A stretch of 64,000 nt of DNA from Acidimicrobiia bacterium (GTDB lineage: Bacteria; Actinomycetota; Acidimicrobiia; IMCC26256; PALSA-610): assembly GCA_036271555.1 (NCBI GenBank), contig DATBAK010000059.1, forward strand, positions 1 to 64,000, given 5' to 3'. Of the stretch, positions 31,939 to 62,641 are shown one piece after another (position 1 is the stretch's first letter; each line of letters begins with the position of its first letter). The notes below the pieces were generated by a model. That model ran no database searches, was not told the origin of the DNA, and saw only the letters and a list, made by a program, of their open reading frames with translations. A program made the position numbers and the translations under genes.

Positions 31939-32490
31939 TTACCCGGAACGGCGTGCGTTCAACAGCCGAGCGGCGCGACAGGCCGGACCGCGGCGCGGCG
32001 CATCGCGCGGTGGCGGGTTCGATCGCGGCCGCGCGGCACCACTCGACGCGTGCCCGGGGCCCGTCGACGCGCTCGCAGGACGTGTTGTCGCCGTCGCGTC
32101 GCCGCCGCGCGTCACGCGCGGTGCGATCGTCACGACGAACCACACGGTCTTCCCCGGGCGACCCACGTTCTCGGTGACGCCCCACTCGTCGGCGAGCGCG
32201 CGCACGATCTGCAGACCACGACCCGAGTACTCGCGCGGCTCGGGCGTGCGCAGGCTCGGCAGACGGGAGCCGTCGTCGCTCACGGCGACGCGAACGCGTT
32301 GATGATCGCGATCGACGGCGACGGTGAACGGGCTCGCCGCGTGGCGCACGGAATTCGTCGCGAGCTCCGAGACCATGACCGCGATCGAGTCGAGGATGTC
32401 GGTTGGCGCCTCGCCGAGCGCCTCCAGCGCGTAGCGGCGCGCGCGTCCGATCGACTCGACGGCGTGCGGGAACGTGCGCTCGGCACTCAT
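31939..32490 (-). CDS. RsbW-type anti-sigma factor kinase
   Basis: 183 residues. HATPase_c_2 domain with N box VMVSELATNSVRHAAS (about 38-53), G1 region VSDDGSRLP and G2 loop GRGLQIVRALADEWGV; all ATP-binding parts are present. A basic, proline-rich tail of about 50 residues (from 130 on) is unusual for the family. It should both bind a SigB/SigF-class sigma factor and phosphorylate the neighbouring STAS proteins. Its ATG overlaps the stop of the upstream STAS gene. The sigma factor itself is not in the window. Confidence 0.87.
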   Translation of the reverse strand: MSAERTFPHAVESIGRARRYALEALGEAPTDILDSIAVMVSELATNSVRHAASPFTVAVDRDHQRVRVAVSDDGSRLPSLRTPEPREYSGRGLQIVRALADEWGVTENVGRPGKTVWFVVTIAPRVTRGGDATATTRPASASTGPGHASSGAARPRSNPPPRDAPRRGPACRAARLLNARRSG

Positions 32491-32813
32491 GGCTCGATCG
32501 GCAGGACGTCGGTGAGCCCGGTCGCCTCGAGGATGCGTTGCACGACGCTCGACGGGTTGCGAAGCCGGATCGAATCGGTCTTCTCCGCGGCGCGCAGCAG
32601 CACCGCGATGCCGGAGCTGTCGATGAAGCTCAGCCCCGACAGGTCGAACACCACCTGTGCAGGGTGACCGGCGAGCGCGCCGCTGAGGTCGGTCTCGACC
32701 GTCACGACGTTCGACATGTCGACCTCGCCGCGGATGCTGATGAGCCGCGGGTCCGAGTTGTTCTGCGTGCACTCGATGCTCGCCGTCGATCCGCTCTCCT
32801 CTAGCTCAGCCAT
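32487..32813 (-). CDS. STAS-domain anti-sigma factor antagonist, RsbV-type
   Basis: 108 residues. ISIRGEVDMSNVVTVETDL and VVFDLSGLSFIDSSGIAVLLRA match RsbV/SpoIIAA; the serine pair of IDSSGIA contains the phospho-acceptor. A slightly long, acidic N-terminus precedes the fold. It overlaps the membrane phosphatase gene by 13 bases at its start and the RsbW gene by 4 at its end, so all three are tightly coupled. Confidence 0.92.
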   Translation of the reverse strand: MAELEESGSTASIECTQNNSDPRLISIRGEVDMSNVVTVETDLSGALAGHPAQVVFDLSGLSFIDSSGIAVLLRAAEKTDSIRLRNPSSVVQRILEATGLTDVLPIEP

Positions 32814-34942: not shown

Positions 34943-35187
34943 CCCGCTTCGGGGATCTTCTCCCACCACTGGCACCACCACTGTGCGCCCACGAGGATGC
35001 GCAGCTTCGGGTGCCAGCAGTACGACAGATCGGCGGTCGGCTCGAGGTAGTACAAGCAGTTCTCGCACTGCTCGGCACCCGACGGCTTCCCGATGAGCAC
35101 GGCGTTCGCGGCGAGATGGCGGAGCTCCAAGGAGAGCTTCTCGTCGATCTCCTTGGGTTCCGGCTCGGGGATGACGTAGTCGCTCAC
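34939..35187 (-). CDS. HiPIP-like four-cysteine protein (82 aa)
   Basis: 82 residues with cysteines at 41, 44, 57 and 72: C-x2-C-x12-C-x14-C. The order, the aromatic residues around the second pair (NCLYYL) and the GAQWWCQWW ending resemble high-potential iron-sulfur proteins, which hold a [4Fe-4S] cluster with C-x2-C-x(n)-C-x(n)-C and a W-C near the end. HiPIPs are normally exported, but this one has no signal peptide; its N-terminus is acidic and proline rich. A zinc-binding alternative cannot be excluded. Confidence 0.5.
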   Translation of the reverse strand: MSDYVIPEPEPKEIDEKLSLELRHLAANAVLIGKPSGAEQCENCLYYLEPTADLSYCWHPKLRILVGAQWWCQWWEKIPEAG

Positions 35188-35335
35188 GGCGCGAACGCTA
35201 CCGGGAGCGCGACGGGCCTCCCGAACCGCGACGCGCGGCGCGCGGCGCGCGCTCGTTACATCAACGTTGGCTCAACGACGAGTGGCTTCTGCTCATAGGG
35301 CGTATAACCGGTGCAGGTTGACCGAAGGAGTGGGG

Positions 35336-36034
35336 GTGAACGTCATGGTGGGTGCCCAGGCTCGCGTCCTCGTGGTGGAAGACCTCGAGTCGGCGCGTGA
35401 GCTGGCGGTCGAAGCTCTCGAGGCGCACGGTTTTTCGACAACGACGTGCGCCGACGGCGCGGCGGCGTTGCAGGCGATCCGGGGCGAGCCGCTGAACGCG
35501 GTGGTGCTCGATCTCGGGCTGCCGTCGATGAGCGGCTTCGATCTGCTCCAGGAGCTCCGGCGCGCGAGCGACATCCCGGTCGTGATCGTGAGCGGCCGCG
35601 CCGAAGAGGGCGACCGCCTGCAGGGACTGCGGCTCGGTGCCGACGACTACCTCGTCAAGCCGTTCTCGCCACGCGAGCTCGGTGAGCGCGTGCGCGCGGT
35701 GCTGCGGCGGTCGAATCCCTCGTCCCGCACGGAATCACTCGTGTTCGACGGCATCGAGATCAACCTCAGCGCGCGCGAAGTGCGCGTCGACGGTGAGGTC
35801 GTCGCGCTGACACCGCTCGAGTTCACGCTCCTCGTGTTCCTCGCGAGCTCGCCGCGCCGCGTGTTCTCGCGCGCGGACCTGTTGCGTGCGGTGTGGGGCT
35901 CCGATGCCGGGTGGCAGACGCCCGCGACCGTGACCGAGCACGTGCGCCGGCTGCGGCGCAAGCTCGAGCCGTCAAGCGGAGGGAAGTGCTGGATCGTGAC
36001 CGTGCGCGGCGCCGGGTACCGGTTCGAGCCGTAG
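35336..36034 (+). CDS. OmpR-family response regulator
   Basis: 232 residues: receiver (VVEDLES, phospho-Asp in VLDLGLPSMSG, VSGRAEE, VKPFSP) and winged helix (LTPLEFTLLVFLASSPRRVFSRADLLRAVWG...VTEHVRRLRRKLEP...RGAGYRFEP). The GTG at 35336 has GAAGGAG five bases upstream; an ATG three codons on is an alternative. A TATAAC hexamer at 35303 may be its -10. Its 3' end overlaps by 63 bases, in antisense, with the convergent histidine kinase gene. Target genes unknown. Confidence 0.93.
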   Translation: MNVMVGAQARVLVVEDLESARELAVEALEAHGFSTTTCADGAAALQAIRGEPLNAVVLDLGLPSMSGFDLLQELRRASDIPVVIVSGRAEEGDRLQGLRLGADDYLVKPFSPRELGERVRAVLRRSNPSSRTESLVFDGIEINLSAREVRVDGEVVALTPLEFTLLVFLASSPRRVFSRADLLRAVWGSDAGWQTPATVTEHVRRLRRKLEPSSGGKCWIVTVRGAGYRFEP

Positions 36035-37147
36035 CCGGTCCGGCGTGAGCGGCAGCGCGATCCGGAAGGTCGCGCCGGGCTCGTCGGTCTCGATCACGTC
36101 GAGCGATCCGCCCATCGCCTCCATCAAGGCGCGGCTCACGCACAGCCCGAGCCCCGTGCCGGCGACACCGCGTCGACTCGCGTCGAGCCGTTCGAACGGC
36201 TCGAAGATGCGCTCGCGCTGCGCGCGGTCGATGCCGGGCCCGCTGTCGTGCACGTCGACCGCGGCGACGCGACCGTCGAGCGACGTGGTGACGGTGACGG
36301 TGCTCCCCTCGGGGCCGAACTTCAACGCGTTGGTGAGCACGTTCAGCAGCACCTGGTGCAGGCGTTGCGCGTTCCCCGTCGCGGTGACCGGGCCGCCGGC
36401 GCGCGCGTCGGTGTGCAACGTGATGGTGCGCTCACCGGCCAGGGGCTCGAGCACGTCGAGGGCCTTGCCGACCGCCGTGTCGACGTCGACGTGCTCGCGC
36501 ATCAGCGAGCCGGACGGATCCTCGAGGCGCGCGAGATACAGCGCGGTGTCGAGCAGGCTCACGAGCTGCGCGCCGCTCTCCTGCATGAGCGTCGCCCAGC
36601 GGTGCTGCTTCTCGTTGAGCGTCGAGCTGGTGAGCAGCTCCGCGAAGCCGAGCATCGAGCTCAACGGTGTGCGCATCTCGTGGCTCAGCTCGGCGAGGAA
36701 CGCGACCTTGGCCGCGTGCTCGCGCGTTCGCACCTCGGGCACCTCGACGGCGTCGATGATCGCCAGCCGGCTCGAGTAGGTGCCGCTCGCGTCGAAGAGC
36801 GGCGTGCTCGTGACGTGGACGCGGCGGGGCCCGCCGTGCACGGGGTGGATCACGTAGTCGAGGTCGACCTTCCGCGGCTCGTCGGCGACCCGTTCGAGGT
36901 GGCGCTGCACGCGTTGCGCGCCATCGGGATCGAGGCGATCGATCCACGCCTCCGGTCCCTTGAGGATCTCGTCGTAGGGGAGGCCCATCACCTCGGCGCT
37001 CGCGTGGGTCGCCCACACGACGCGGTACGGCTCGCGCGTCGCCAGGATCACGCCGATCGGCAGATTGAGCGCGAGGTCGTCGACCAGCGCCGCCCGTTCT
37101 TGTGTGGTGAGGTCGATCGTGTCCGCCCGTGAAGCTGGGTCGCGCAT
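35972..37147 (-). CDS. PAS-containing sensor histidine kinase
   Basis: 391 residues, soluble. PAS domain (about 25-135), then HisKA with His156 in ELSHEMRTPLSSML and a HATPase domain with VLTNALKFGPEG, DSGPGID and GTGLGL. No membrane segment, so the signal is intracellular. Convergent with the OmpR-type regulator, whose coding end it overlaps by 63 bases; these two are probably a cognate pair despite the unusual orientation. Divergent from the hybrid kinase that opens the chemosensory region; about 270 bases lie between, with no further gene. Confidence 0.9.
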   Translation of the reverse strand: MRDPASRADTIDLTTQERAALVDDLALNLPIGVILATREPYRVVWATHASAEVMGLPYDEILKGPEAWIDRLDPDGAQRVQRHLERVADEPRKVDLDYVIHPVHGGPRRVHVTSTPLFDASGTYSSRLAIIDAVEVPEVRTREHAAKVAFLAELSHEMRTPLSSMLGFAELLTSSTLNEKQHRWATLMQESGAQLVSLLDTALYLARLEDPSGSLMREHVDVDTAVGKALDVLEPLAGERTITLHTDARAGGPVTATGNAQRLHQVLLNVLTNALKFGPEGSTVTVTTSLDGRVAAVDVHDSGPGIDRAQRERIFEPFERLDASRRGVAGTGLGLCVSRALMEAMGGSLDVIETDEPGATFRIALPLTPDRLRLEPVPGAAHGHDPALPSA

Positions 37148-37420
37148 CGATTGCTACTCGTGAAGGCGGCCGAAGCGCCGAGATCTCGAGTCCGTCGCGC
37201 GAATCGACATGTTGGCCCGCTTGCCTCTCCCCCGAATGCAGTCGGATCGTAGCCGTCGAATTGCGGCTACGGAGCGTGCTCGGGGCGTCGTCGACGCGCG
37301 GCGAGGCACCGCGCGCCCGTGTGACGAATCGTTGTGAATTCCGTGGTTGAACTGCCGCGTTGTGTCGCCGACAAGACGCCAGCGCTCTCCATTGCTCGGA
37401 GAGGCGAACGAGGCGGGAAC

Positions 37421-48513: not shown

Positions 48514-49614
48514 ATGCAAGCCGGTAAGCAGATGATCCACGAGAACGAGAAGATCCTGCGCGTGCTCGTCGCCGAGGACTCGGCGACGGTGCGGGCCCAC
48601 GTCCGGTCGGTGCTCGACGCCGACCCCGGATTGACGGTCGTCGGCGAGGCCGCCGACGGTCAGGGCGCGATCGCGCGCTGCCTCGAGCTGCGACCCGACG
48701 TCATCACGATGGACATGATGATGCCCGAGGTGAGTGGGCTCGCGGCGACCGAGTACCTGATGGCCCACCGTCCGACCCCGATCCTGATCGTGTCGTCGTC
48801 GATCGACCGCGGTGAGCTGTTCCACACCTACGACGCGTTGGCGGCGGGCGCGGTCGACGTGCTCGAGAAGCCCGACCGCGATACCGATCCGGTCGAGTGG
48901 TCGCGCCGACTCGTGTCCTCGGTGAAGCGTGTGGCGCGCATTCGCGTGATCACGCATCCGCGCGCGCGGCTCCTCGGTCACTCCATGCCGGTCGCGCCGC
49001 CACCGCCGGGCATCGCGCGATCGACGCGCCCGGCCGTGGTCACGATCGGCGCGTCGACCGGCGGACCGGGCGCGATCGTCGAGGTCCTGCGCGGCCTGCC
49101 CGCGTCGTTCGACCTGCCAACGCTGTTCGTGCTGCACATTGGCGCGCCGTTCGGCACCGCCTTCGTCGAGTGGTTGGACGGTCAGCTCGACCGCCCGGTC
49201 GTCGAAGCGCGCGCCGGGATGGAGGTGAGCGCCCTCGCGGGTTCGGTCGCCATGGCGCGGCCGGAGCGGCATCTCGGTGTTCGCGACGGGTGCCTCTACC
49301 TGTCCGACGCGCCGGAGCGACACTCGTGCCGGCCCTCGATCGACGTGTTGTTCGAGACGGTCGCGCAGGAGTACGGGCCGCGCGCGGTGGGCTGCCTGCT
49401 CACCGGCATGGGCCGCGACGGTGCCGCGGGCCTCCGGCTCATGCGCGACTCCGGCGGCATCACGATCGCGCAGGACGAGGCGACGTCGGTCGTCTACGGC
49501 ATGCCGCGCGAGGCGGTGCGGCTCGACGCGGTCGAGCACGTGCTGCCGCTCGGCGCGATCGGCCCCGCGCTCGCGTCGCTCGTCGACGCGCGCAACCGGG
49601 AGCACGCCCGATGA
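48514..49614 (+). CDS. cheB: CheB-type methylesterase with receiver domain
   Basis: 366 residues. Receiver (about 15-135) with VAEDSATVR, phospho-Asp in ITMDMMMPEVSG and LEKPDRD; proline-rich linker; methylesterase domain (about 170-360) with the catalytic serine in GASTGGPGAIVEV, histidine in FVLHIGAPFGTAF and aspartate in LLTGMGRDGAAGL. It removes methyl groups from the MCP, opposing CheR, so the adaptation loop is complete. ATG follows the cheA stop directly; an ATG six codons on is an alternative. The stop overlaps the next gene (ATGA). Confidence 0.93.
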   Translation: MQAGKQMIHENEKILRVLVAEDSATVRAHVRSVLDADPGLTVVGEAADGQGAIARCLELRPDVITMDMMMPEVSGLAATEYLMAHRPTPILIVSSSIDRGELFHTYDALAAGAVDVLEKPDRDTDPVEWSRRLVSSVKRVARIRVITHPRARLLGHSMPVAPPPPGIARSTRPAVVTIGASTGGPGAIVEVLRGLPASFDLPTLFVLHIGAPFGTAFVEWLDGQLDRPVVEARAGMEVSALAGSVAMARPERHLGVRDGCLYLSDAPERHSCRPSIDVLFETVAQEYGPRAVGCLLTGMGRDGAAGLRLMRDSGGITIAQDEATSVVYGMPREAVRLDAVEHVLPLGAIGPALASLVDARNREHAR

Positions 49615-52001
49615 CACCCCGTGTGTTGATCCTCGACGACAGCCTCACGGTGCGCATGGACCTCGCGGCCGCGTTCGAAGCGGCCGGCTGCACGACCTCG
49701 ATCTGCGCGACCGCGGGCGAGGCGCGCGCGCTCCTCGCCGAGCGGAGCGTCGATGTCATCGTGCTCGACGTGCTGCTGCCCGACGGCGACGGCGTCGAGC
49801 TGCTCGCCGAGCTGCGGCGCACGCCCGCGGGTCGCGACGCGGTCGTCCTGATGCTGTCGACCGAAGCCGAGGTCGGCGACCGCCTGCGCGCCTTGCGCAC
49901 GGGCGCCGACGAGTACGTCGGCAAGCCGTACGACAGTCGCTACGTCGTCGCCAAGGCGCACGAGCTCCACCGCGCGCGCGTCGAAGCGCCCGCGGACGCG
50001 ACGACGATCCTGATCATCGACGACAGCATCACGTTCCGCGAAGAGCTCCGGCGCGCGTGCGAAGAGGGCGGGTACCGCGTGCTCACCGCCGGCACCGGCG
50101 AGGACGGACTGCGCATCGCGGCCGTGCACCGCCCGGCCGCGATCGTCGTCGACGGACAACTGCCCGACACCGACGGCGCCACGGTCATCCGGCGCATCCG
50201 CCTCGACGGCGCGCTCCGCAGCGTGCCCTGCGTGCTGTTGACCGGCTCCGAGGACGGCAGCGCCGAGCTGCGCGCGCTCGACGCCGGCGCCGACACGTTC
50301 ATGCGCAAGGAGGACGACGTCTCCGTCGTCCTCGCGCGGCTGGGCGCGCTGCTGCGCCACGCGCTCCCGCCCGTGCCCGGCGCCCGCGAGCGCAGCACGT
50401 TCGCGCCGCAACGCCTCCTCGCGGTCGACGACAGCGCCACGTACCTGCACGAGCTCGCCCGTCAGCTGCGCGGCGACGGCTACGACGTCGTGGTCGCACG
50501 CTCGGGTGAGGAGGCGCTCGAGCTGCTCGGTGCACAACCCGTCGACTGCATCCTGCTCGATCTCATGATGCCGGGCATCGGCGGCAGCGAGACGTGTCGC
50601 CGCGTCAAGGCGGTCCCGACGCTGCGCGACGTGCCGCTCATCATGCTCACCGCGATGGAGGACCCGGAGTCGTTGGTCGACGCGCTCGCCGCCGGCGCCG
50701 ACGACTACATCCAGAAGTCGACCGAGTTCGAGGTCCTCACCGCGCGCGTGCGGGCCCAGCTGCGCCGCAAGCAGTTCGAGGACGAGCACCGCCACATCCG
50801 CGAGCAGCTCCTCGCGCGCGAGCTCGACGAGGCCGAGGCCGGTCGAGAGCACGCGCGCATGCAGGAACAGCTGATGATCTCCGACCGCATGGCGTCCGTG
50901 GGTGTGCTCGCGGCCGGTGTCGCGCACGAGATCAACAACCCGCTCGGCGCCGTGCTCGGCAACCTCGTGCTCGCGCAGCAGGCGATCGTCGGGCTCGAGG
51001 TCGACTCGTCGTCGTCGGCGCGGCTGCAGGAGATCGTCGAGGAGATGCGCGACGCGCTCGAAGCTGCGCAGCGCATCCGCGACGTCGCTGCCGACCTGAA
51101 GCTGTTCGCTCGATCCGACACCGACGAAGAGGCTGCCATCGACGTGCAGCAGGTCGTGGAGTCTTCGATCCGCATGGCCCGCAACGAGATCCGACACCGC
51201 GCGCGCGTGAGCACGTCGTTCAAACCCGTGCCGCTCGTGCGCGCGAACGCGTCCCGGCTCGGCCAGGTGTTCCTCAACTTGATCGTGAATGCGGCCCAGG
51301 CGATCCCCGAGGGTCGTGCCGACGCCAACGAGATCTCGGTCCGGACGAACATCGACGACAGCGGTCGGGTGCTCGTCGAGGTCGCCGACACCGGCGCGGG
51401 CATTCCGCCCGAGGTGCGCGACAAGCTCTTCACGCCCTTCTTCACGACCAAGCCCGCAGGAGTCGGGACGGGCCTCGGGCTCTCGATCTGCAATCGCATC
51501 ATCCACTCGTTCGGCGGCACGATCAGCGTCGAGAGCGAGCTCGGCGTGGGCACCGTGTTCGGCGTCCACCTCGTCGCCGCGAGCGACGTCGACGCCGCGG
51601 CGGTGATCGGGAGCGTCGACGAGACACCGGGCGCGTCGCGGCGAGGGACTGTGCTCGTCATCGACGACGAACCGTCGGTCGGCGTGCTCGTCGAGCGAGT
51701 GCTGACGCGTGAGCACGACGTCCGCTGCACGATCGACGCGAACGAGGCGCTGAGCTGGATCGAATCCGGTCAGCGCTTCGACGTGATCCTGTGCGATCTC
51801 ATGATGCCGCAGGTCACGGGGATGGAGTTCTACGAGCGCTTGCGGCAGTCGGTGCCGGAGCAGCGGGAAGCCGTCGTGTTCATCACGGGCGGCGCGTTCA
51901 CCGCGGCCGCGCTCGAGTTCGTCGAGCAGCTGGACCGGCCGCTGCTCGAGAAGCCGTTCGACGTCGGCGCGCTGCGCGCGATCGTCAACGAGCGCGTCTG
52001 A
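49611..52001 (+). CDS. REC-REC-REC-histidine kinase-REC protein
   Basis: 796 residues. Three N-terminal receivers: 1-125 (LDDSLTVR, VLDVLLPDGDG, VGKPYD), 135-255 (IDDSITFR, VVDGQLPDTDG, FMRKEDD) and 265-385 (VDDSATYL, LLDLMMPGIGG, IQKSTE). A coiled linker leads to HisKA with His439 in GVAHEINNPLGAVLGN and a HATPase domain with LIVNAAQAIPEG, DTGAGIP and GTGLGLSI. A fourth receiver ends the protein (about 680-796; IDDEPSVG, LCDLMMPQVTG, LEKPFD). It is the last gene of the chemosensory operon and takes the place where a CheY output would be expected, so it may integrate phosphate from CheA with other inputs. Confidence 0.9.
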   Translation: MTPRVLILDDSLTVRMDLAAAFEAAGCTTSICATAGEARALLAERSVDVIVLDVLLPDGDGVELLAELRRTPAGRDAVVLMLSTEAEVGDRLRALRTGADEYVGKPYDSRYVVAKAHELHRARVEAPADATTILIIDDSITFREELRRACEEGGYRVLTAGTGEDGLRIAAVHRPAAIVVDGQLPDTDGATVIRRIRLDGALRSVPCVLLTGSEDGSAELRALDAGADTFMRKEDDVSVVLARLGALLRHALPPVPGARERSTFAPQRLLAVDDSATYLHELARQLRGDGYDVVVARSGEEALELLGAQPVDCILLDLMMPGIGGSETCRRVKAVPTLRDVPLIMLTAMEDPESLVDALAAGADDYIQKSTEFEVLTARVRAQLRRKQFEDEHRHIREQLLARELDEAEAGREHARMQEQLMISDRMASVGVLAAGVAHEINNPLGAVLGNLVLAQQAIVGLEVDSSSSARLQEIVEEMRDALEAAQRIRDVAADLKLFARSDTDEEAAIDVQQVVESSIRMARNEIRHRARVSTSFKPVPLVRANASRLGQVFLNLIVNAAQAIPEGRADANEISVRTNIDDSGRVLVEVADTGAGIPPEVRDKLFTPFFTTKPAGVGTGLGLSICNRIIHSFGGTISVESELGVGTVFGVHLVAASDVDAAAVIGSVDETPGASRRGTVLVIDDEPSVGVLVERVLTREHDVRCTIDANEALSWIESGQRFDVILCDLMMPQVTGMEFYERLRQSVPEQREAVVFITGGAFTAAALEFVEQLDRPLLEKPFDVGALRAIVNERV

Positions 52002-52028: not shown

Positions 52029-53588
52029 TCACCCGTCGAGGCGCCCGCAGAGACGCGCGACCGTCTCGAGGAACTGCTCGATGTCGAGCGGCTTCGTCAT
52101 GTAGTCGGTCGCGCCGAGCTCGCGCAGCCGGTCGACCTGCGCCGGCGTCGCGTCGGCCGAGAGCATGAGCACGGGCGTCTCGCGCGCCTCGGGTGAGGAC
52201 CGGAGCCGCTCGAGCACGACATCGCCGTTGATGTCGGGCAGGTGGAGGTCGAGCAGCACGAGGTCGGGACGGCGCTCGCGCGCCAGCCGCAGCCCCGCGC
52301 GACCGGTCGTCGCCGAGACGAGCGAGTACTCCGCGTGCCCGGCGAGGATCCGCTCGACGAGCCGCAGGTTCGACGCGTTGTCCTCGACATAGAGAACGGT
52401 GCAGGTGTCGGTCGCCGTCTCCGTCTGGTCGGGCTCGCTCGGTGGCGCGGCGGGTCTCTCCGCTCGCACGCTCGCGGATTCGCCGCTGTCGCCGTTGGTC
52501 GACGCGCCGTTGGTCGACGCACCGTTGCCGGACGCACCGTTGCCGGACGCGCCGTTGGTCGACGCGCGGGGCGCGCCGAGCATCTCGTTCACGAGCTCGA
52601 GCAGGGTCTCGCCGGCCTGCACGATCTGCGCGGCGTTGTCGCGCTGCTCGGGGCCGAGCTCGTCGCCGGCAAGGAGCTTGCCGAAGCCGATGACGGCGTT
52701 GAGCGGCGTGCGCATGTCGTGGCCGATACGGGAGAGGAGCTCGGCCTTCGTCTTTCCGACGGCTTCGGCGGCCGCGCGCGCTTCGCGCAGCTCGTTCTCG
52801 AGGTGGACGTGATCGGTGACGTCGGTCACGACGACGACGACGCCGTCGATGTCGCCGTTGGGCCCGTGCAGCACGCGGCGATGACCTTCGACGACGCGCA
52901 GGTCGTCGTCCGGTGTCCGCACCCGGTAGCGCGACTCCTCGTGCTCCATCTCGCCCGAGAGCAGCTGCCGGTAGACCTCGCGGATCCGCTCGCGGTCGTC
53001 GGGATGCACGACGGGGGAGTCGAACACCGTGCCGCCGACGAGCGTGTCGGGCTCCGCGCCCAGGACGCGACCCGCGGCGCTGCCGATCTCGCGGATCACG
53101 CCGTCCCGGTCGACGATGGAGATCACGTCGGAGCTCGTCTGCAGGATCGCCTCCGTCGTGCGGACGAGCTCGAGATGCTCGACCTCCAGGCGCTTGAACC
53201 TGCTGACGTCGCGCATCGTGCCGACGATCGCGGCGCGCTCGCGCCCGCCGTCGTCGCGGCGCCCGCGTACCGCGAGCCACGTTGTTGCCGCGTGCTCGCC
53301 GAACGCGACGACCGTCTCGAAGGGATCGCCGCGGTCGAGCGCCGCGTCGATGCCCTGCACGAGCGCGCTCGCATCGTCGCGGCGCGCGCGCCGGAGCAAC
53401 GCGTCCAGCGTGACCCGCTTGGTCGCGACGTCGGCACCGACATCGACGCCGAGCGCAAGGATCTCGATGTCGCTGCCGCGGAGCTCGAACGTGCGGGCGT
53501 CCGGGTCGTAGACGAAGACGATCGCGTCTCCGACTGCGAGCGCACGCTCGATCGTTCCCACCTCCGATTGCGGCACGTTGGCAACCAT
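52029..53588 (-). CDS. PAS-HisKA-receiver protein lacking the ATPase domain
   Basis: 519 residues. Two PAS-type domains (about 15-130 and 140-265, the second with the PAC-like RVLHGPNGDIDGVVVVVTDVT), then a HisKA helix pair with His290 in RIGHDMRTPLNAVIGFGKLL. Where the HATPase domain should begin (after ELVNEML), the sequence turns into a low-complexity NGAST/NGASG linker and then a complete receiver (about 392-519; VEDNASNL, LLDLHLPDINGD, MTKPLDI). No N, G1 or G2 box is present, so it cannot bind ATP on its own. It could be a phospho-transfer intermediate or an adaptor. Divergent from an atypical response regulator. Confidence 0.88.
   Translation of the reverse strand: MVANVPQSEVGTIERALAVGDAIVFVYDPDARTFELRGSDIEILALGVDVGADVATKRVTLDALLRRARRDDASALVQGIDAALDRGDPFETVVAFGEHAATTWLAVRGRRDDGGRERAAIVGTMRDVSRFKRLEVEHLELVRTTEAILQTSSDVISIVDRDGVIREIGSAAGRVLGAEPDTLVGGTVFDSPVVHPDDRERIREVYRQLLSGEMEHEESRYRVRTPDDDLRVVEGHRRVLHGPNGDIDGVVVVVTDVTDHVHLENELREARAAAEAVGKTKAELLSRIGHDMRTPLNAVIGFGKLLAGDELGPEQRDNAAQIVQAGETLLELVNEMLGAPRASTNGASGNGASGNGASTNGASTNGDSGESASVRAERPAAPPSEPDQTETATDTCTVLYVEDNASNLRLVERILAGHAEYSLVSATTGRAGLRLARERRPDLVLLDLHLPDINGDVVLERLRSSPEARETPVLMLSADATPAQVDRLRELGATDYMTKPLDIEQFLETVARLCGRLDG
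52485..52559 (-). repeat. Tandem 15-base repeat encoding an NGAS linker
   Basis: Five 15-base units encode TNGAS, GNGAS, GNGAS, TNGAS and TNGDS between the HisKA helices and the receiver. The repeat occupies the position of the missing ATPase domain and is the likely scar or product of its deletion. Confidence 0.9.
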
Positions 53589-53675
53589 AAGCCCGAGCGC
53601 TCGCCACAAGTGTGAGGTTGTCGCAACGTTGGGATTCGTGATCGCCGCGCACCCGCAGTTGCGCGAGTTAGCATC

Positions 53676-54884
53676 GTGTCGTACTTCGTACGCGCGTCGC
53701 CGCCCCGGACCCCGGCGGCACGCCCGACTCGGGCAGGCCGCACCTTGGGGGACGGTTCCGAAGCCGACGAACCGCTCGAGCGCCCGCCGAGCGGGGGCTC
53801 GACTCGCGTCGATCATCCCGAGGACGTCGACGACGTCGCGCTCGCCGACGTGCTCACGTGGTTGGTGGCCGAGCTCGGTGGTGAAGGCGTGATGGTCGCC
53901 GACGACGAAGGCTTCGTCGTGCTTGCCGACGATCGCGCCGAAGCGTGGTTCGGCTATCCGGCCGCGCGACTCGAGGGCATGCGCGTCGGCGATCTGCTGT
54001 CGGATCCTGCGAATCCGGCGGCCGATCCGTTGACGGTGACCGCGGATGCCGGCGGCAACCGTCGCGTCGACGCCCGTCGCGCCGACGCCACCGTGCGGCG
54101 GGTGCGGCTCGGCGCCAAGCCGGTGACCACGCGTCGGGGCCGGTTCCACGTCCTGACGATCATCGACTCCGCAGACACGGAGGTTCCGGTACCGCCGCCG
54201 GAGCCGATCGGTCGGGTGCTCGTCGTCGGTCCGCTCGACGTGCGCGCCGACTCGGTGGTCGGGACGCTCGATGCGGTGGGCGCGGAGACGCTGACCGCGG
54301 AGAACGCGCGCGGCGCGCTGGTGCTGCTCGAGTCGGAGCGTCCCGACGTCGTGGTGCTCGACGACGACCTGAGCTCCGTCGAGCTGTTCGCCGAGCTGCG
54401 CGTCCTGCGCGCCGCGACCGGCGCACCGATCATCGTCGTGAGCCCGCACGCGGAGGAAGACGATCGCGTCGGCGCGCTGCAACTGGGTGCCGACGACTAC
54501 GTGATCCAGCCGTTCTCCACCGCCGAGCTCGCCGAGCGCGTGCGCGTGGTGGCCCGCCGGTCGGCGGCGCGCACACGGGTGGAGATACTGACGTTCGGTG
54601 ACCTGGAGATCGAGCTCGACGCGCGCCGCGCGTCCGTCGCCGACCGCGACGTGCAGCTCAGTCCGATCGAGTTCGACCTGCTCGTCTTTCTCGCGCGCAC
54701 ACCGCGCCACGTGTTCTCGCGCGCCGACCTGCTGCGCCACGTCTGGGGATCGCGCGCCGACTGGCAGACCGAGGCGACCGTGACCGAGCACGTGCGCCGG
54801 CTCCGTCGCAAGATCGAGCCGGATCCGAACGCGCCGCGTCGCATCATCACCGTGCACCGCGCCGGCTACCGCTTCGATCCCTGA
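53676..54884 (+). CDS. Atypical PAS-receiver-winged-helix response regulator
   Basis: 402 residues from the first GTG; the true start may be later (TTG at 53745), because the first 30 residues are Pro/Arg rich. A PAS-like domain (about 55-165), a receiver (about 180-295) and an OmpR-type winged helix (about 300-402, LSPIEFDLLVFLARTPRHVFSRADLLRHVWG...RRIITVHRAGYRFDP). In the receiver the acidic pocket reads VVGPLD instead of DD, and the invariant lysine of KP is glutamine (VIQPFS); an aspartate in VVLDDDLSS remains. It probably does not respond to phosphate in the usual way. Divergent from the kinase-like protein without ATPase. Confidence 0.82.
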   Translation: MSYFVRASPPRTPAARPTRAGRTLGDGSEADEPLERPPSGGSTRVDHPEDVDDVALADVLTWLVAELGGEGVMVADDEGFVVLADDRAEAWFGYPAARLEGMRVGDLLSDPANPAADPLTVTADAGGNRRVDARRADATVRRVRLGAKPVTTRRGRFHVLTIIDSADTEVPVPPPEPIGRVLVVGPLDVRADSVVGTLDAVGAETLTAENARGALVLLESERPDVVVLDDDLSSVELFAELRVLRAATGAPIIVVSPHAEEDDRVGALQLGADDYVIQPFSTAELAERVRVVARRSAARTRVEILTFGDLEIELDARRASVADRDVQLSPIEFDLLVFLARTPRHVFSRADLLRHVWGSRADWQTEATVTEHVRRLRRKIEPDPNAPRRIITVHRAGYRFDP

Positions 54885-54909: not shown

Positions 54910-55641
54910 TCAGCGCGCCCGCGCGTGCGCGACGGCTTCGGGATCGAGCTCGCCCTCGACGACGCGGCGCGCAACATCGGTGAGGAGCTGATGGCGCCCG
55001 CGCGCGTAGCGCCGGAGACCCACGAAGGCTTCGTCGACGCTCACCCGCGCGCGATGGGCGACGACGCCCTTCGCCTGTTCGATCACCACCCGCGCGTCGA
55101 GCGCGGTCCGCAACTGCTCCGCGACCACACGCGCGTGGCGCGCCGCACGCGCCTCGTCGATCGCGAGCGCGGTGACGTCGGCGAGCCCCTGCACCACGGC
55201 GACGTCGTCGGGAGCGAGCGCCTCGGGACTCGTGGCGCCGAGCGCGAGCGCGCCGAGCGCGGCGCCGCTCCGGCGCAGCGGAACCGCGGCGAACGATCGC
55301 AGACCGATGCGCGCGGCTTCGGGCGCGAAGCGGGGCCAGCGCGCGAGCAGGGCGTCGTCGCGGTCGGTGGCGATGATGCAGCCGACGGCGCGGATCGCGT
55401 CGTGGCCCGGTCCCTCGGCGTGCTCGGTCTCGAGCTCCGCGAGACGCTGCCCGGGCTCGCTCGACCACGCCACGGCGCGCAGCGATCCGCCGGCCTCGCC
55501 GAGCACGACGGCCGTGTCGACCGCGAAGAGCCCGGCGACCCGCTGCGTCAGGTCGATCGCGATGTCCGACGGTGCGGTGGTGGCCGCCAGCGACTCGGCG
55601 AAGTCGAGGAATGCGTGCAGCAGCCGCGCTTCTCGGGCCAT
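54910..55641 (-). CDS. GAF-ANTAR regulatory protein
   Basis: 243 residues. GAF domain (about 25-165, TQRVAGLFAVDTAVVLGE...LRSFAAVPLRRSGAALGALALG) and a C-terminal ANTAR domain (about 180-235, LRTALDARVVIEQAKGVVAHRARVSVDEAFVGLRRYAR). ANTAR proteins bind dual RNA hairpins and prevent termination; they are abundant in actinobacteria. The ligand of the GAF domain and the target RNAs are unknown. Convergent with the atypical regulator, 25 bases between stops. Confidence 0.9.
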   Translation of the reverse strand: MAREARLLHAFLDFAESLAATTAPSDIAIDLTQRVAGLFAVDTAVVLGEAGGSLRAVAWSSEPGQRLAELETEHAEGPGHDAIRAVGCIIATDRDDALLARWPRFAPEAARIGLRSFAAVPLRRSGAALGALALGATSPEALAPDDVAVVQGLADVTALAIDEARAARHARVVAEQLRTALDARVVIEQAKGVVAHRARVSVDEAFVGLRRYARGRHQLLTDVARRVVEGELDPEAVAHARAR

Positions 55642-59250: not shown

Positions 59251-60203
59251 TCGAAGAACCCGGGGAGGCCGAGCTCGTCGCCGCGCACTGTTGGGAGTCC
59301 GAGGACCGGGTACCGGGCCGTCCGGAGATGACGGCGTTGCGGCGCCGGCTGCGGCTCCGCCAGGCGCGGTGGCGCGCGGCGAACGGTCATCCGATCGGAT
59401 CGCAGCCGATGGGTGGCGCGCGGCCGGGGCAGGAGTCGCGGCCGGTCGGCAGCCGTATCGACCTCGAGTACGCGCGCGAGACCGGTGCCACGTTCCTCAC
59501 CGACGCGGCGCGCGCCGCGGCAACGGCGCGCGCGTCGACGGTCGAGGCGCATCAACGGCTCGACTCGGCGCGCATGTGGGCGGACCTCCTGTCGTCGGTC
59601 GCGCTGTCGTTCAACCTCTTCGGCGATCTCGCCACCGACCCGCAGCGCGCCGATCGAGCGCTGCACCGCTGGTGGCCCGACGTACCCGGCACCGTCTCCG
59701 ACGTTCGCTTCGAGCACTCGCCGGGCCGGCTCGACGGCGCGTACCTCGGGAACCTGAGCACGCTCGAGGCCGCGTTCGTCCTCGATCATGGCGACGGGAC
59801 GCGCGGCATCGTCGGCGTCGGTGTGCGGTACCACGAGCGCGCCAAGTCGGAGGTGCCGAAGCCGCGCAACCTCGAGCGCTATCGCCGGGTCGCCGGCCGT
59901 TCGGGTGCGTTCCGCCGCGGCTACGAGGACGCCGTCGTCGGCGACCTCACGGTGCTCTGGCTCGCGCATCTGCTCGTGCTCTCGATGATGCAGAACCCGA
60001 AGGACGACACGAACTGGGCTCGCTATGTCGTCGCGTATCCGGCCGGCAACCAAGACTTCGCGCGGCTCTGTGCGCGATATCGGGAGCAGCTCGTCGACGA
60101 CTCGACGTTCGCGTCGATCACGATCGAGGAGTTGCTCGCCGCGCGGGCGCTCCGCCCGCCCACGATCGCGGCGCTGCGCGCTCGCTATCTCTCGGACTCC
60201 TGA
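59247..60203 (+). CDS. PGN_0703-like putative PD-(D/E)XK nuclease family protein
   Basis: 318 residues from a GTG overlapping the previous stop. ALSFNLFGDL, an acidic residue in FEHSPGRLDGAYLGNLSTLEAAFVLDHGDG, and IVGVGVRYHERAKSE follow the order seen in the PGN_0703-type family, where the last segment is a degenerate (G)xExK: here the expected acidic residue is replaced by V-x-V-R and a glutamate follows in YHE. Activity is therefore uncertain. No methyltransferase is nearby, so a restriction role has no support from context. Confidence 0.5.
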   Translation: MIEEPGEAELVAAHCWESEDRVPGRPEMTALRRRLRLRQARWRAANGHPIGSQPMGGARPGQESRPVGSRIDLEYARETGATFLTDAARAAATARASTVEAHQRLDSARMWADLLSSVALSFNLFGDLATDPQRADRALHRWWPDVPGTVSDVRFEHSPGRLDGAYLGNLSTLEAAFVLDHGDGTRGIVGVGVRYHERAKSEVPKPRNLERYRRVAGRSGAFRRGYEDAVVGDLTVLWLAHLLVLSMMQNPKDDTNWARYVVAYPAGNQDFARLCARYREQLVDDSTFASITIEELLAARALRPPTIAALRARYLSDS

Positions 60204-60304
60204 TCGCCGACGGACGCGAATCGAGGGGGGCGCACTTGGAGGCGGCGACACGCGCGCGGGGTAGCGTTCCGCCCGCCACGGGGGCTTGGAGGCGGGGGTC
60301 AGGG

Positions 60305-61450
60305 ATGAAGAGGCTTTGCATCGGCGCGTCCGTCGCGCTGCTCACGGCGATGACGCTGGGCTCCGGTGCTGCGGCGGCCACGCCGGCGTGGCGCTTGCAG
60401 ACGGTCAAGGCGCCCGCGGGCGCGACCGACGCCGACCTGCGCGGCGTGTCGTGCCCAGCTGCGACCGCCTGCACGACGGTCGGGGTGTACCTGGTCAACT
60501 TCACGAGCGGCGGACCGACCGCGGCGGGATGGGACGGCACGCGCTGGAAGGCGCAGCGCGTCGCCGCGACCGTGCCGACGCAGCTCGGCGGAGTGTCGTG
60601 CGTCGCGAGCACACAGTGCGTGGCCGTCGGGTCGAGCTACGACATGTCGACGTTCTCGAGCGCACCGGCCGCGGCCGTGTGGAACGGCACGAAGTGGACG
60701 GGCAAGAAGGTCCCGGTGCCCGCCACCGCGACCGGCGGGGGAACGCTGAACGGGGTGTCGTGCGCGTCGGCGACCGCCTGTGTCGCGGTCGGATCCGTGA
60801 GCGTCGCCGGCTCGGTGCCGCTCGCCGCGTCGTGGAACGGAACGCGATGGAAGCTGAGCAAGCCGCACGCGCCGAAGGCGTCGCCTTCGTCGGAGTTCTG
60901 GGGCGTCTCGTGCGCGACGAGCACGTCGTGCGTCGCGGTCGGTGAGTCGTACGACGCGTCGGGCACGAATTCCGTGCCGATGGCGCAGGTGTGGAACGGC
61001 AGTAGCTGGACGGTGCAGACCGTGCCGACGCCCGCCCACGCGTTCGCCGTGCAGCTCAACTCGGTGTCGTGCAGCGCGGCCGCGTCGTGCACGGCCGTCG
61101 GCTACTACCACCTCAATTCGGGTTCGGGCACCATCACACCGCTCATCGAACGGTGGAACGGTACGAGCTGGACCGTGCAGACGAGTGGGGTCGCGGTCGG
61201 CGTGCTGTGGGGCGTGTCGTGTGCGGCGAGCTCGACGTGCATGGCGGTGGGCGGCCTCGTGGGCGCCGCCGCGATCGCGCAGCAGTGGGACGGCACGACG
61301 TGGGTCGCGAAGACCGTGCCGACACCGGCCGGTGCGAGCAACCCGGGCTTGCGGAGCGTGTCGTGCACCGCGGCGAACGCGTGCACCGCGGTCGGGAGCG
61401 CGAACGCGAGCAGCGGCCATCTTCAGGACCTCGTCGAGCGGTTCTCATGA
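60305..61450 (+). CDS. Secreted seven-repeat protein, likely beta-propeller (paralogue 1)
   Basis: 381 residues. A Sec signal peptide (1-24, ending AAA) is followed by seven repeats of about 50 residues, each with [GS]VSC-x5-C-x-[AT]VG and then W-[ND]-G-x2-W and V-P-x-P. Fourteen cysteines fall in seven C-x5-C pairs. The mature N-terminus (PAWRLQTV) is the missing W-strand of the last repeat, which ends LVERFS, the velcro closure of a seven-bladed propeller. No catalytic motif; a binding or surface-structure role is likely. The start is fixed by GGGGTCAGG before the ATG, shared with paralogue 2. Confidence 0.85.
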   Translation: MKRLCIGASVALLTAMTLGSGAAAATPAWRLQTVKAPAGATDADLRGVSCPAATACTTVGVYLVNFTSGGPTAAGWDGTRWKAQRVAATVPTQLGGVSCVASTQCVAVGSSYDMSTFSSAPAAAVWNGTKWTGKKVPVPATATGGGTLNGVSCASATACVAVGSVSVAGSVPLAASWNGTRWKLSKPHAPKASPSSEFWGVSCATSTSCVAVGESYDASGTNSVPMAQVWNGSSWTVQTVPTPAHAFAVQLNSVSCSAAASCTAVGYYHLNSGSGTITPLIERWNGTSWTVQTSGVAVGVLWGVSCAASSTCMAVGGLVGAAAIAQQWDGTTWVAKTVPTPAGASNPGLRSVSCTAANACTAVGSANASSGHLQDLVERFS

Positions 61451-61516
61451 CCTCGGCGCGCCGATAGCATCTCGTCGCGAACGAACGGGTGGCTTCTGGC
61501 GATGTGCGGGGTCAGG

Positions 61517-62641
61517 ATGCGGAGACTGCAGGTGGGAGTGGTCGTCGCACTCGTGACGTTCGGTCTCGCCGCCGGCGGCGCGTCCGCAGCGACGCCCAAG
61601 TGGCGGATGCAGCACTCGTCGATGTTGGTGGGCGATCCGAACGCCTCGCTGATCGGCGTGTCGTGCGCGTCGACGACCGCGTGCACCGCGGTCGGCATGG
61701 GCTCGAGCCGCGCGTTCGCGGAGACGTGGGACGGTTCGCGTTGGACGCGCATGCGCACGCCGCGGGGCATCGCGCAATTCGACGCAGTGTCGTGCGCGGC
61801 GTCGACGCAGTGCATGGCGGTCGGTCAGACCTCCGCCGGCGCACCGGCGGTCATGTCGTGGGACGGGTCGACGTGGCGGCGGGAGCACGTCACGTTTGCC
61901 GCGCACTTCCAGGATGTGCGGTTCGCCGCCGTCTCGTGTGCGTCGACGACCGATTGCGTCGTCGTCGGCTCGGCCGAGGACCACACCCGATTCGCGGTCG
62001 TACCCGTCGCGCAACGCTGGAACGGGTCGTCGTGGTCCAACCTGCACGCGCGGGTGCCGAAGCGCACGATCCACAGTGAGTTCTACGGCGTCTCGTGCCC
62101 GGCGCCGACAACGTGTGTCGCGGTCGGTTTCCGAGAAGGGGGCACCGACCCGCAGCCGCTCGTCGAAAAGTGGGACGCCGGCGCGTGGAGCATTGCCCGC
62201 CCGACCGTGCCGGCCGACGCGGTCGACATCGTGCTCGCGTCGGTCTCGTGCCCGTCGACCTCGGTGTGCACGGCGGTCGGCAGCTACGAGGAGCACACGT
62301 TCGGTGGAACGTTGGCGACGCTCGCGGAGCGCGGGGACGGATCGACGTGGACGATTCAGCCGACGCCGCCGCCGACCCTGCAAGCCGGCGTGTTCTTCTC
62401 GAGCGTGTCGTGCGGTTCGACGTCGTCCTGCGTTGCGGTCGGACCCTTCGACGAGTCGGCTGACGCGTTCGCGGAGCGCTGGGACGGCTCGACCTGGGCC
62501 GTCGAGCACGTTCCGGTCGGCGCTTCTTCGATTCCGAATCTCGAGACCGTGTCCTGTGCCTCCGATTCGGTGTGTACCGCGGTTGGCTCCGCAACCGGTC
62601 GCGACGGGCACGAGGTGCCCCTGATCGAGCGCGACTCCTGA
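61517..62641 (+). CDS. Secreted seven-repeat protein, likely beta-propeller (paralogue 2)
   Basis: 374 residues, same design as its neighbour: signal peptide (to about residue 25), mature start TPKWRMQ, seven VSC-x5-C-x-[AV]VG units and W-x-G/x-x-x-W strands, ending LIERDS. The fifth blade has lost its first tryptophan (ERGDGSTW). I start at 61517 rather than the ATG five codons earlier because the GGGGTCAGG-ATG context matches that of paralogue 1. About 65 bases lie between the two genes, so they arose by tandem duplication and are probably co-expressed. Confidence 0.85.
   Translation: MRRLQVGVVVALVTFGLAAGGASAATPKWRMQHSSMLVGDPNASLIGVSCASTTACTAVGMGSSRAFAETWDGSRWTRMRTPRGIAQFDAVSCAASTQCMAVGQTSAGAPAVMSWDGSTWRREHVTFAAHFQDVRFAAVSCASTTDCVVVGSAEDHTRFAVVPVAQRWNGSSWSNLHARVPKRTIHSEFYGVSCPAPTTCVAVGFREGGTDPQPLVEKWDAGAWSIARPTVPADAVDIVLASVSCPSTSVCTAVGSYEEHTFGGTLATLAERGDGSTWTIQPTPPPTLQAGVFFSSVSCGSTSSCVAVGPFDESADAFAERWDGSTWAVEHVPVGASSIPNLETVSCASDSVCTAVGSATGRDGHEVPLIERDS

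Follow-up and report, generated by a model that had tools for sequence, protein, structure and literature searches.

The window analysed here, a stretch of 64,000 nucleotides from an Acidimicrobiia bacterium, contains two divergent genes that adjoin a chemotaxis-type gene cluster. A kinase-like (pseudo-histidine kinase) gene at 52029–53588 on the minus strand encodes a protein of 519 amino acids in which a PAS-like region, a PAS domain, a DHp (HisKA) domain, a linker and a receiver follow one another. Facing it, a regulator frame at 53676–54884 on the plus strand encodes a PAS-like region, a pseudo-receiver and a winged helix. A longer open frame in the mechanical ORF list, which reaches 54977 and overlaps the regulator, is a high-GC artefact. 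The kinase-like gene is convergent with a hybrid kinase gene (48816–52001, plus strand) that lies directly after the MCP, CheA and CheB genes and whose product has three N-terminal receivers, a weak HisKA, a HATPase and a fourth receiver. On the other side of the pair, a convergent minus-strand gene (54910–55641) ends 26 bp from the regulator's stop and encodes a GAF-ANTAR protein; ANTAR proteins are usually RNA-binding antiterminators. Two adjoining plus-strand frames in the ORF list (59291–62641) carry tandem copies of an approximately 50-residue repeat (GVSCAS..TACTAVG...W.G..W) and probably encode exported repeat proteins.

A kinase-like protein with no CA domain

Three Pfam domains are found in the kinase-like protein: PAS_4 (E = 2.9e-12), HisKA (7.9e-12) and Response_reg (1.5e-22). 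The PAS domain (residues 151–259; 52812–53138, minus strand) has a FixL-like fold match and is preceded by the PAS-like region at about residues 1–128. The N-terminal 130 or so residues gave no PAS profile match with hhalign; in structure comparison, where the FixL tandem PAS and single receivers are the best fold matches of the protein, the FixL matches extend over them. The HisKA/DHp domain (residues 281–337; 52578–52748, minus strand) carries the motif H-D-M-R-T-P-L-N with the phospho-acceptor His290 (codon 52719–52721, minus strand), and RetS (6dk7) is among the PDB sequence matches to this part of the protein. In the C-terminal receiver (residues 398–510; 52059–52397, minus strand) every active-site residue is present, including the acidic pair, the Asp, the Thr/Ser and the Lys. 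The AlphaFold model places the PAS domain, both DHp helices and the receiver at good confidence (receiver pLDDT about 97), and shows the linker as mostly disordered.

The CA domain is absent at the DNA level, because only about 52 residues (~160 bp) separate the DHp from the receiver and no HATPase of any family is matched by Pfam in the gene. The shortness of this interval, together with the lack of a HATPase model match, also rules out a CA domain hidden by divergence or a frameshift. The linker in its place (residues 344–395; 52404–52559, minus strand) is mostly predicted to be disordered, and an in-frame 15-bp tandem repeat of 5.2 copies (52490–52567, minus strand) encodes pentapeptides of the ASTNG/ASGNG type in it. 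A linker of this kind, disordered and partly repeat-coded, would act as a flexible tether that now fills the place of the CA domain. As in a hybrid histidine kinase, a HisKA domain with its His is combined with a C-terminal receiver, but the HATPase (CA) domain of that class is missing; the protein is a pseudo-histidine kinase, in that the autokinase machinery is gone and the remaining transmitter fold is kept. A preliminary description made from the sequence alone had proposed a kinase-like protein with PAS, HisKA, His290 and a good receiver but no ATPase, and the Pfam analysis bears this out, coordinates included. A stand-alone CA domain encoded nearby was considered as a donor and rejected: the window yielded a single lone HATPase (31939–32805, minus strand), which is a HATPase_c_2 protein, presumably anti-sigma-factor-like, and is an unlikely donor.

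Neither gene looks to be decaying. The GC content by codon position is 0.75/0.47/0.92 in the kinase-like gene and 0.79/0.50/0.87 in the regulator, in both cases equal to that of intact neighbours, and His290 and the constraint on the receiver have been kept. When columns at least 80% conserved in 23 relatives of the kinase-like protein are considered, the receiver retains 31 of 32, at an ordinary mean identity to relatives (0.48). In the DHp, 15 of the 37 conserved columns have changed, and its identity of 0.436 is the lowest among all 24 sequences. These changes cluster beside the His (F-6, M-2, S-1, E+1 to D, L+2) and at the CA junction; the His, Arg+3, Thr+4, Pro+5 and Asn+7 are kept, and with them the transmitter-phosphatase residue (Thr/Asn at H+4, here in HDMRT). 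The alignment indicates drift on the CA-facing side of the DHp and retention of both the receiver and the phosphatase residue. This pattern speaks against simple decay and an assembly deletion alike and singles out the receiver as the probable working part of the protein.

The regulator and its pseudo-receiver

The regulator frame has three candidate starts (GTG at 53676, TTG at 53745 or GTG at 53850), and its first ~30 codons are not coding-like. Pfam detects a Response_reg domain (1.8e-12) and an OmpR/PhoB-type winged helix (Trans_reg_C, 4.1e-23; 54645–54875, plus strand) that is fully conserved, and MtrA, KdpE and PrrA are among the top fold matches. The preliminary description had placed PAS domains in both proteins, which is well founded for the kinase-like protein and less so for the regulator: the region ahead of its receiver gives a weak PAS_4 match (2e-4), just below the curated cut-off, a PAS-like topology at pLDDT about 50–68 in AlphaFold, and an hhalign probability of 80% against the PAS profile of the kinase-like protein.

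The receiver was compared with those of 40 aligned relatives, all of them intact wherever the alignment covers them; for the acidic pair, that is the case in 28. Among the 28, the regulator alone has Gly-Pro (54228–54233, plus strand) in place of the metal-binding pair DD, and it alone has replaced the invariant Lys, present in 40/40 relatives, with Gln (54507–54509, plus strand). The Pro at D+4 (39/40 relatives) has become Ser, the Gly at D+8 (40/40) has become Leu, and Pro stands in place of the small residue at T+1. The phospho-acceptor Asp is retained (LDDDLSS; 54360–54362, plus strand), as are Ser at T and Tyr at K-3. The loss of the invariant lysine (KP to QP) noted earlier is thus confirmed, and the accompanying claim of a lost acidic pocket applies to the metal-binding pair and is too broad with regard to the acceptor Asp. 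Bacterial pseudo-receivers depart from receivers at positions that are also changed here (PMC12632262), and on these residues the protein is classed as a pseudo-receiver response regulator, while its winged helix places it in the OmpR/PhoB family. It probably needs no phosphorylation and is controlled through its PAS domain, its own level or the binding of a partner.

Relatives of the two genes

The absence of a CA domain is particular to this locus. A HATPase match lies just downstream of the HisKA in 20 of the 21 HisKA matches of the genome, the exception being the kinase-like gene, and its closest paralogue, on contig C65, has an intact HATPase (identity 50% across PAS-DHp, 48% across the receiver). 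All complete relatives recovered have the CA domain. In the fetched loci, 144 HisKA frames have a HATPase, and those without one are the kinase-like gene or frames cut by locus ends, the latter being dismissed as apparent cases. A tree built from DHp and receiver together places the kinase-like protein among 27 hybrid kinases, all other rows with a CA domain (support 99/89), on a long branch with no resolved sister. The closest paralogue of the regulator in the window (35180–36034) likewise has an intact receiver; it belongs to an arrangement (35180–37153) in which this OmpR-type regulator and an intact PAS-HisKA-HATPase kinase stand tail to tail, their frames overlapping by 63 bp. Because paralogues and relatives keep CA domains and intact receivers, the ancestors of both genes appear to have been intact, and both losses to be specific to this lineage.

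No orthologous pair was detected when 58 genomes from the order and 395 from the class were searched with the full kinase-like protein, its first 340 residues and the regulator; in a GTDB scan, which gave no orthologue either, the best matches were to other hybrid kinases, through their receiver or DHp. Each defect alone, the CA loss or the pseudo-receiver, is of an already known kind. A CA-less DHp-receiver layout with a repeat-coded linker, beside a PAS-pseudo-receiver regulator, is an unusual variant seen in one genome.

Whether the two genes form a pair is a separate matter. The hybrid kinase relatives of the kinase-like protein are intact and only some adjoin an OmpR-type regulator, those that do forming a separate clade (95/80), and the nearest relatives of the regulator in the class adjoin ordinary non-hybrid kinases; both types of relative pair are intact. 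Since the nearest relatives of the two genes have different partners, an ancestral pairing does not find support in these comparisons. Inheritance from operons of a response regulator and a hybrid kinase (G004, G012, G020, G243) was considered and set aside, as those kinases are a clade of their own and the regulators to which this one is closer stand next to non-hybrid kinases. The divergent intergenic region, when searched for binding sites, contained only weak repeats at chance level, and what links the two genes is their position alone. The preliminary description saw the damage to the two halves as complementary; each loss is real, and the complementarity has adjacency as its sole ground.

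Possible modes of action

The model that we favour, tentatively and at slightly less than even confidence, is that the kinase-like protein is a CA-less pseudokinase that tunes a CA-bearing sibling in the manner of RetS. RetS, with its degenerate HATPase, receives phosphate from GacS on its receiver, removes phosphate from the GacS receiver as a transmitter phosphatase, and prevents GacS from autophosphorylating (PMC5992135). In this model, a PAS-HisKA-HATPase-REC hybrid kinase has lost its CA domain to give a PAS-regulated DHp-receiver protein, which in the absence of that domain cannot autophosphorylate. We infer that its partner is a sibling hybrid kinase, for which the 50% identical C65 paralogue is the best candidate, and that phosphate flows between the two: the intact receiver would accept phosphoryl groups from the sibling's His, and the DHp, with Thr at H+4, would dephosphorylate the sibling's receiver, with heterodimers forming through the PAS-coiled-coil-DHp part. 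The DHp of EnvZ or NtrB suffices for phosphatase activity, with the T/N position as the phosphatase residue (PMC3510030), and the ChrS pseudokinase, with a disrupted CA domain, retains a signalling role via its paralogue's pathway (PMC9491836). Counting against the model, no orthologue was recovered, the partner is a guess, RetS retains a degenerate CA domain and two receivers where the CA domain is wholly absent here, and no heterodimers of truncated ChrS were seen in two-hybrid assays (PMC9491836). The facing regulator would, in the same model, act as a phosphorylation-free transcription factor under PAS, own-level or partner-binding control.

Modulation of a sibling, for instance the C65 kinase, in the RetS manner seems the most economical model, and its main rival is phosphotransferase action. 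Here the DHp would serve, as in Spo0B, to relay phosphate from the receiver of a hybrid kinase through His290, with the attached receiver or a separate regulator as acceptor; CheA, the adjoining multi-receiver kinase or another hybrid kinase could be the donor, each of them only a candidate. We consider this possible but on the unlikely side. His290 is retained in a DHp with both helices, archaeal HisKA-only proteins have been proposed as phospho-acceptors or phosphatases (PMC5847659), and the genome has several hybrid kinases and almost no free Hpt proteins. Pfam, which may miss some of these diverse domains, detects only two Hpt domains in the whole genome, one being the CheA P1 domain in the window (C59:46453) and the other lying inside a hybrid kinase (C26:126969). 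Transfer of phosphate from another kinase, such as CheA or the multi-receiver kinase, was also suggested in the preliminary description, and this scarcity gives the suggestion context. The five substitutions flanking the His fall within a stretch that hardly varies among relatives, and the facing regulator, having lost DD and K, is an unlikely acceptor. That the locus is instead a relic, with a duplicated hybrid kinase that lost its CA domain now decaying beside an independently drifting regulator, is unlikely: the restriction to one genome, the fast-evolving DHp and the lack of orthologues would fit, but 519 codons remain open with normal codon-position composition, the kinase-like receiver is under normal constraint and the winged helix of the regulator is intact. 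It is highly improbable that the CA domain was dropped during assembly, through a deletion spanning short repeats. A 15-bp tandem repeat does lie exactly at the junction in a 104-contig assembly, but the array is only 78 bp long, and substitutions have accumulated on either side of the junction and near the His, which is what a genuine loss long ago would leave.

The remaining readings join the two genes. The proposal in the preliminary description, a dedicated pair that acts by ligand-driven binding with no phosphotransfer between its members, takes account of divergent neighbours that both have PAS or PAS-like domains and are both defective in the standard reaction. We regard it as doubtful, given that the evidence for it is adjacency only, that no orthologous pair exists among the searched genomes, that the nearest relatives differ in partner type, and that strong conservation of the receiver is unexplained if phosphorylation is irrelevant. 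There is a slim chance that the CA loss and the receiver loss co-evolved, such that a DHp-receiver protein charged by a sibling controls the regulator by phosphate-dependent binding and not by phosphotransfer; the phosphorylated element would then sit in the 'kinase', and the regulator would merely read its phosphorylation state. If the neighbours do cooperate, they would illustrate signalling with both of the usual enzymatic partners replaced.

CA-less HisKA proteins and pseudo-receivers are frequent enough to count, and the latter account for ~6% of the bacterial receivers in a representative set (PMC12632262). A CA-less hybrid kinase in one genome with a CA-bearing paralogue, its receiver conserved and its DHp drifting, offers a clean system for the function of ATPase-less kinases. 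With Pseudomonas aeruginosa RetS, which acts on GacS, the kinase-like protein shares descent from hybrid kinases, the lack of autokinase activity, a HisKA domain and an intact receiver, as judged here from sequence; RetS differs in its degenerate CA domain, second receiver and membrane sensor, where the present protein has no CA domain, one receiver and a PAS sensor. HisKA proteins with no HATPase (the archaeal 'nonenzymatic HK-like' proteins and the 'incomplete HK' of P2CS) share a PAS sensor and a HisKA with its conserved His (PMC5847659), but terminate with the HisKA where the kinase-like protein adds a receiver. Lokiarchaeum RHH-HisKA-REC proteins have only the HisKA-REC order in common with it, and hybrid kinases with the PAS-HisKA-HATPase-REC layout in this genome and class, such as the C65 paralogue, differ in keeping the CA domain. 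Among bacterial pseudo-receivers and atypical OmpR-family regulators, HP1043, ChxR and CosR likewise combine an OmpR-type winged helix with a degenerate receiver; the present regulator, in contrast, retains the acceptor Asp and has an extra N-terminal PAS-like domain. ChrS_CA-fs of Corynebacterium glutamicum is also a CA-defective kinase and influences the pathway of a paralogous kinase, but arose by a frameshift during laboratory evolution that left part of the CA domain in place.
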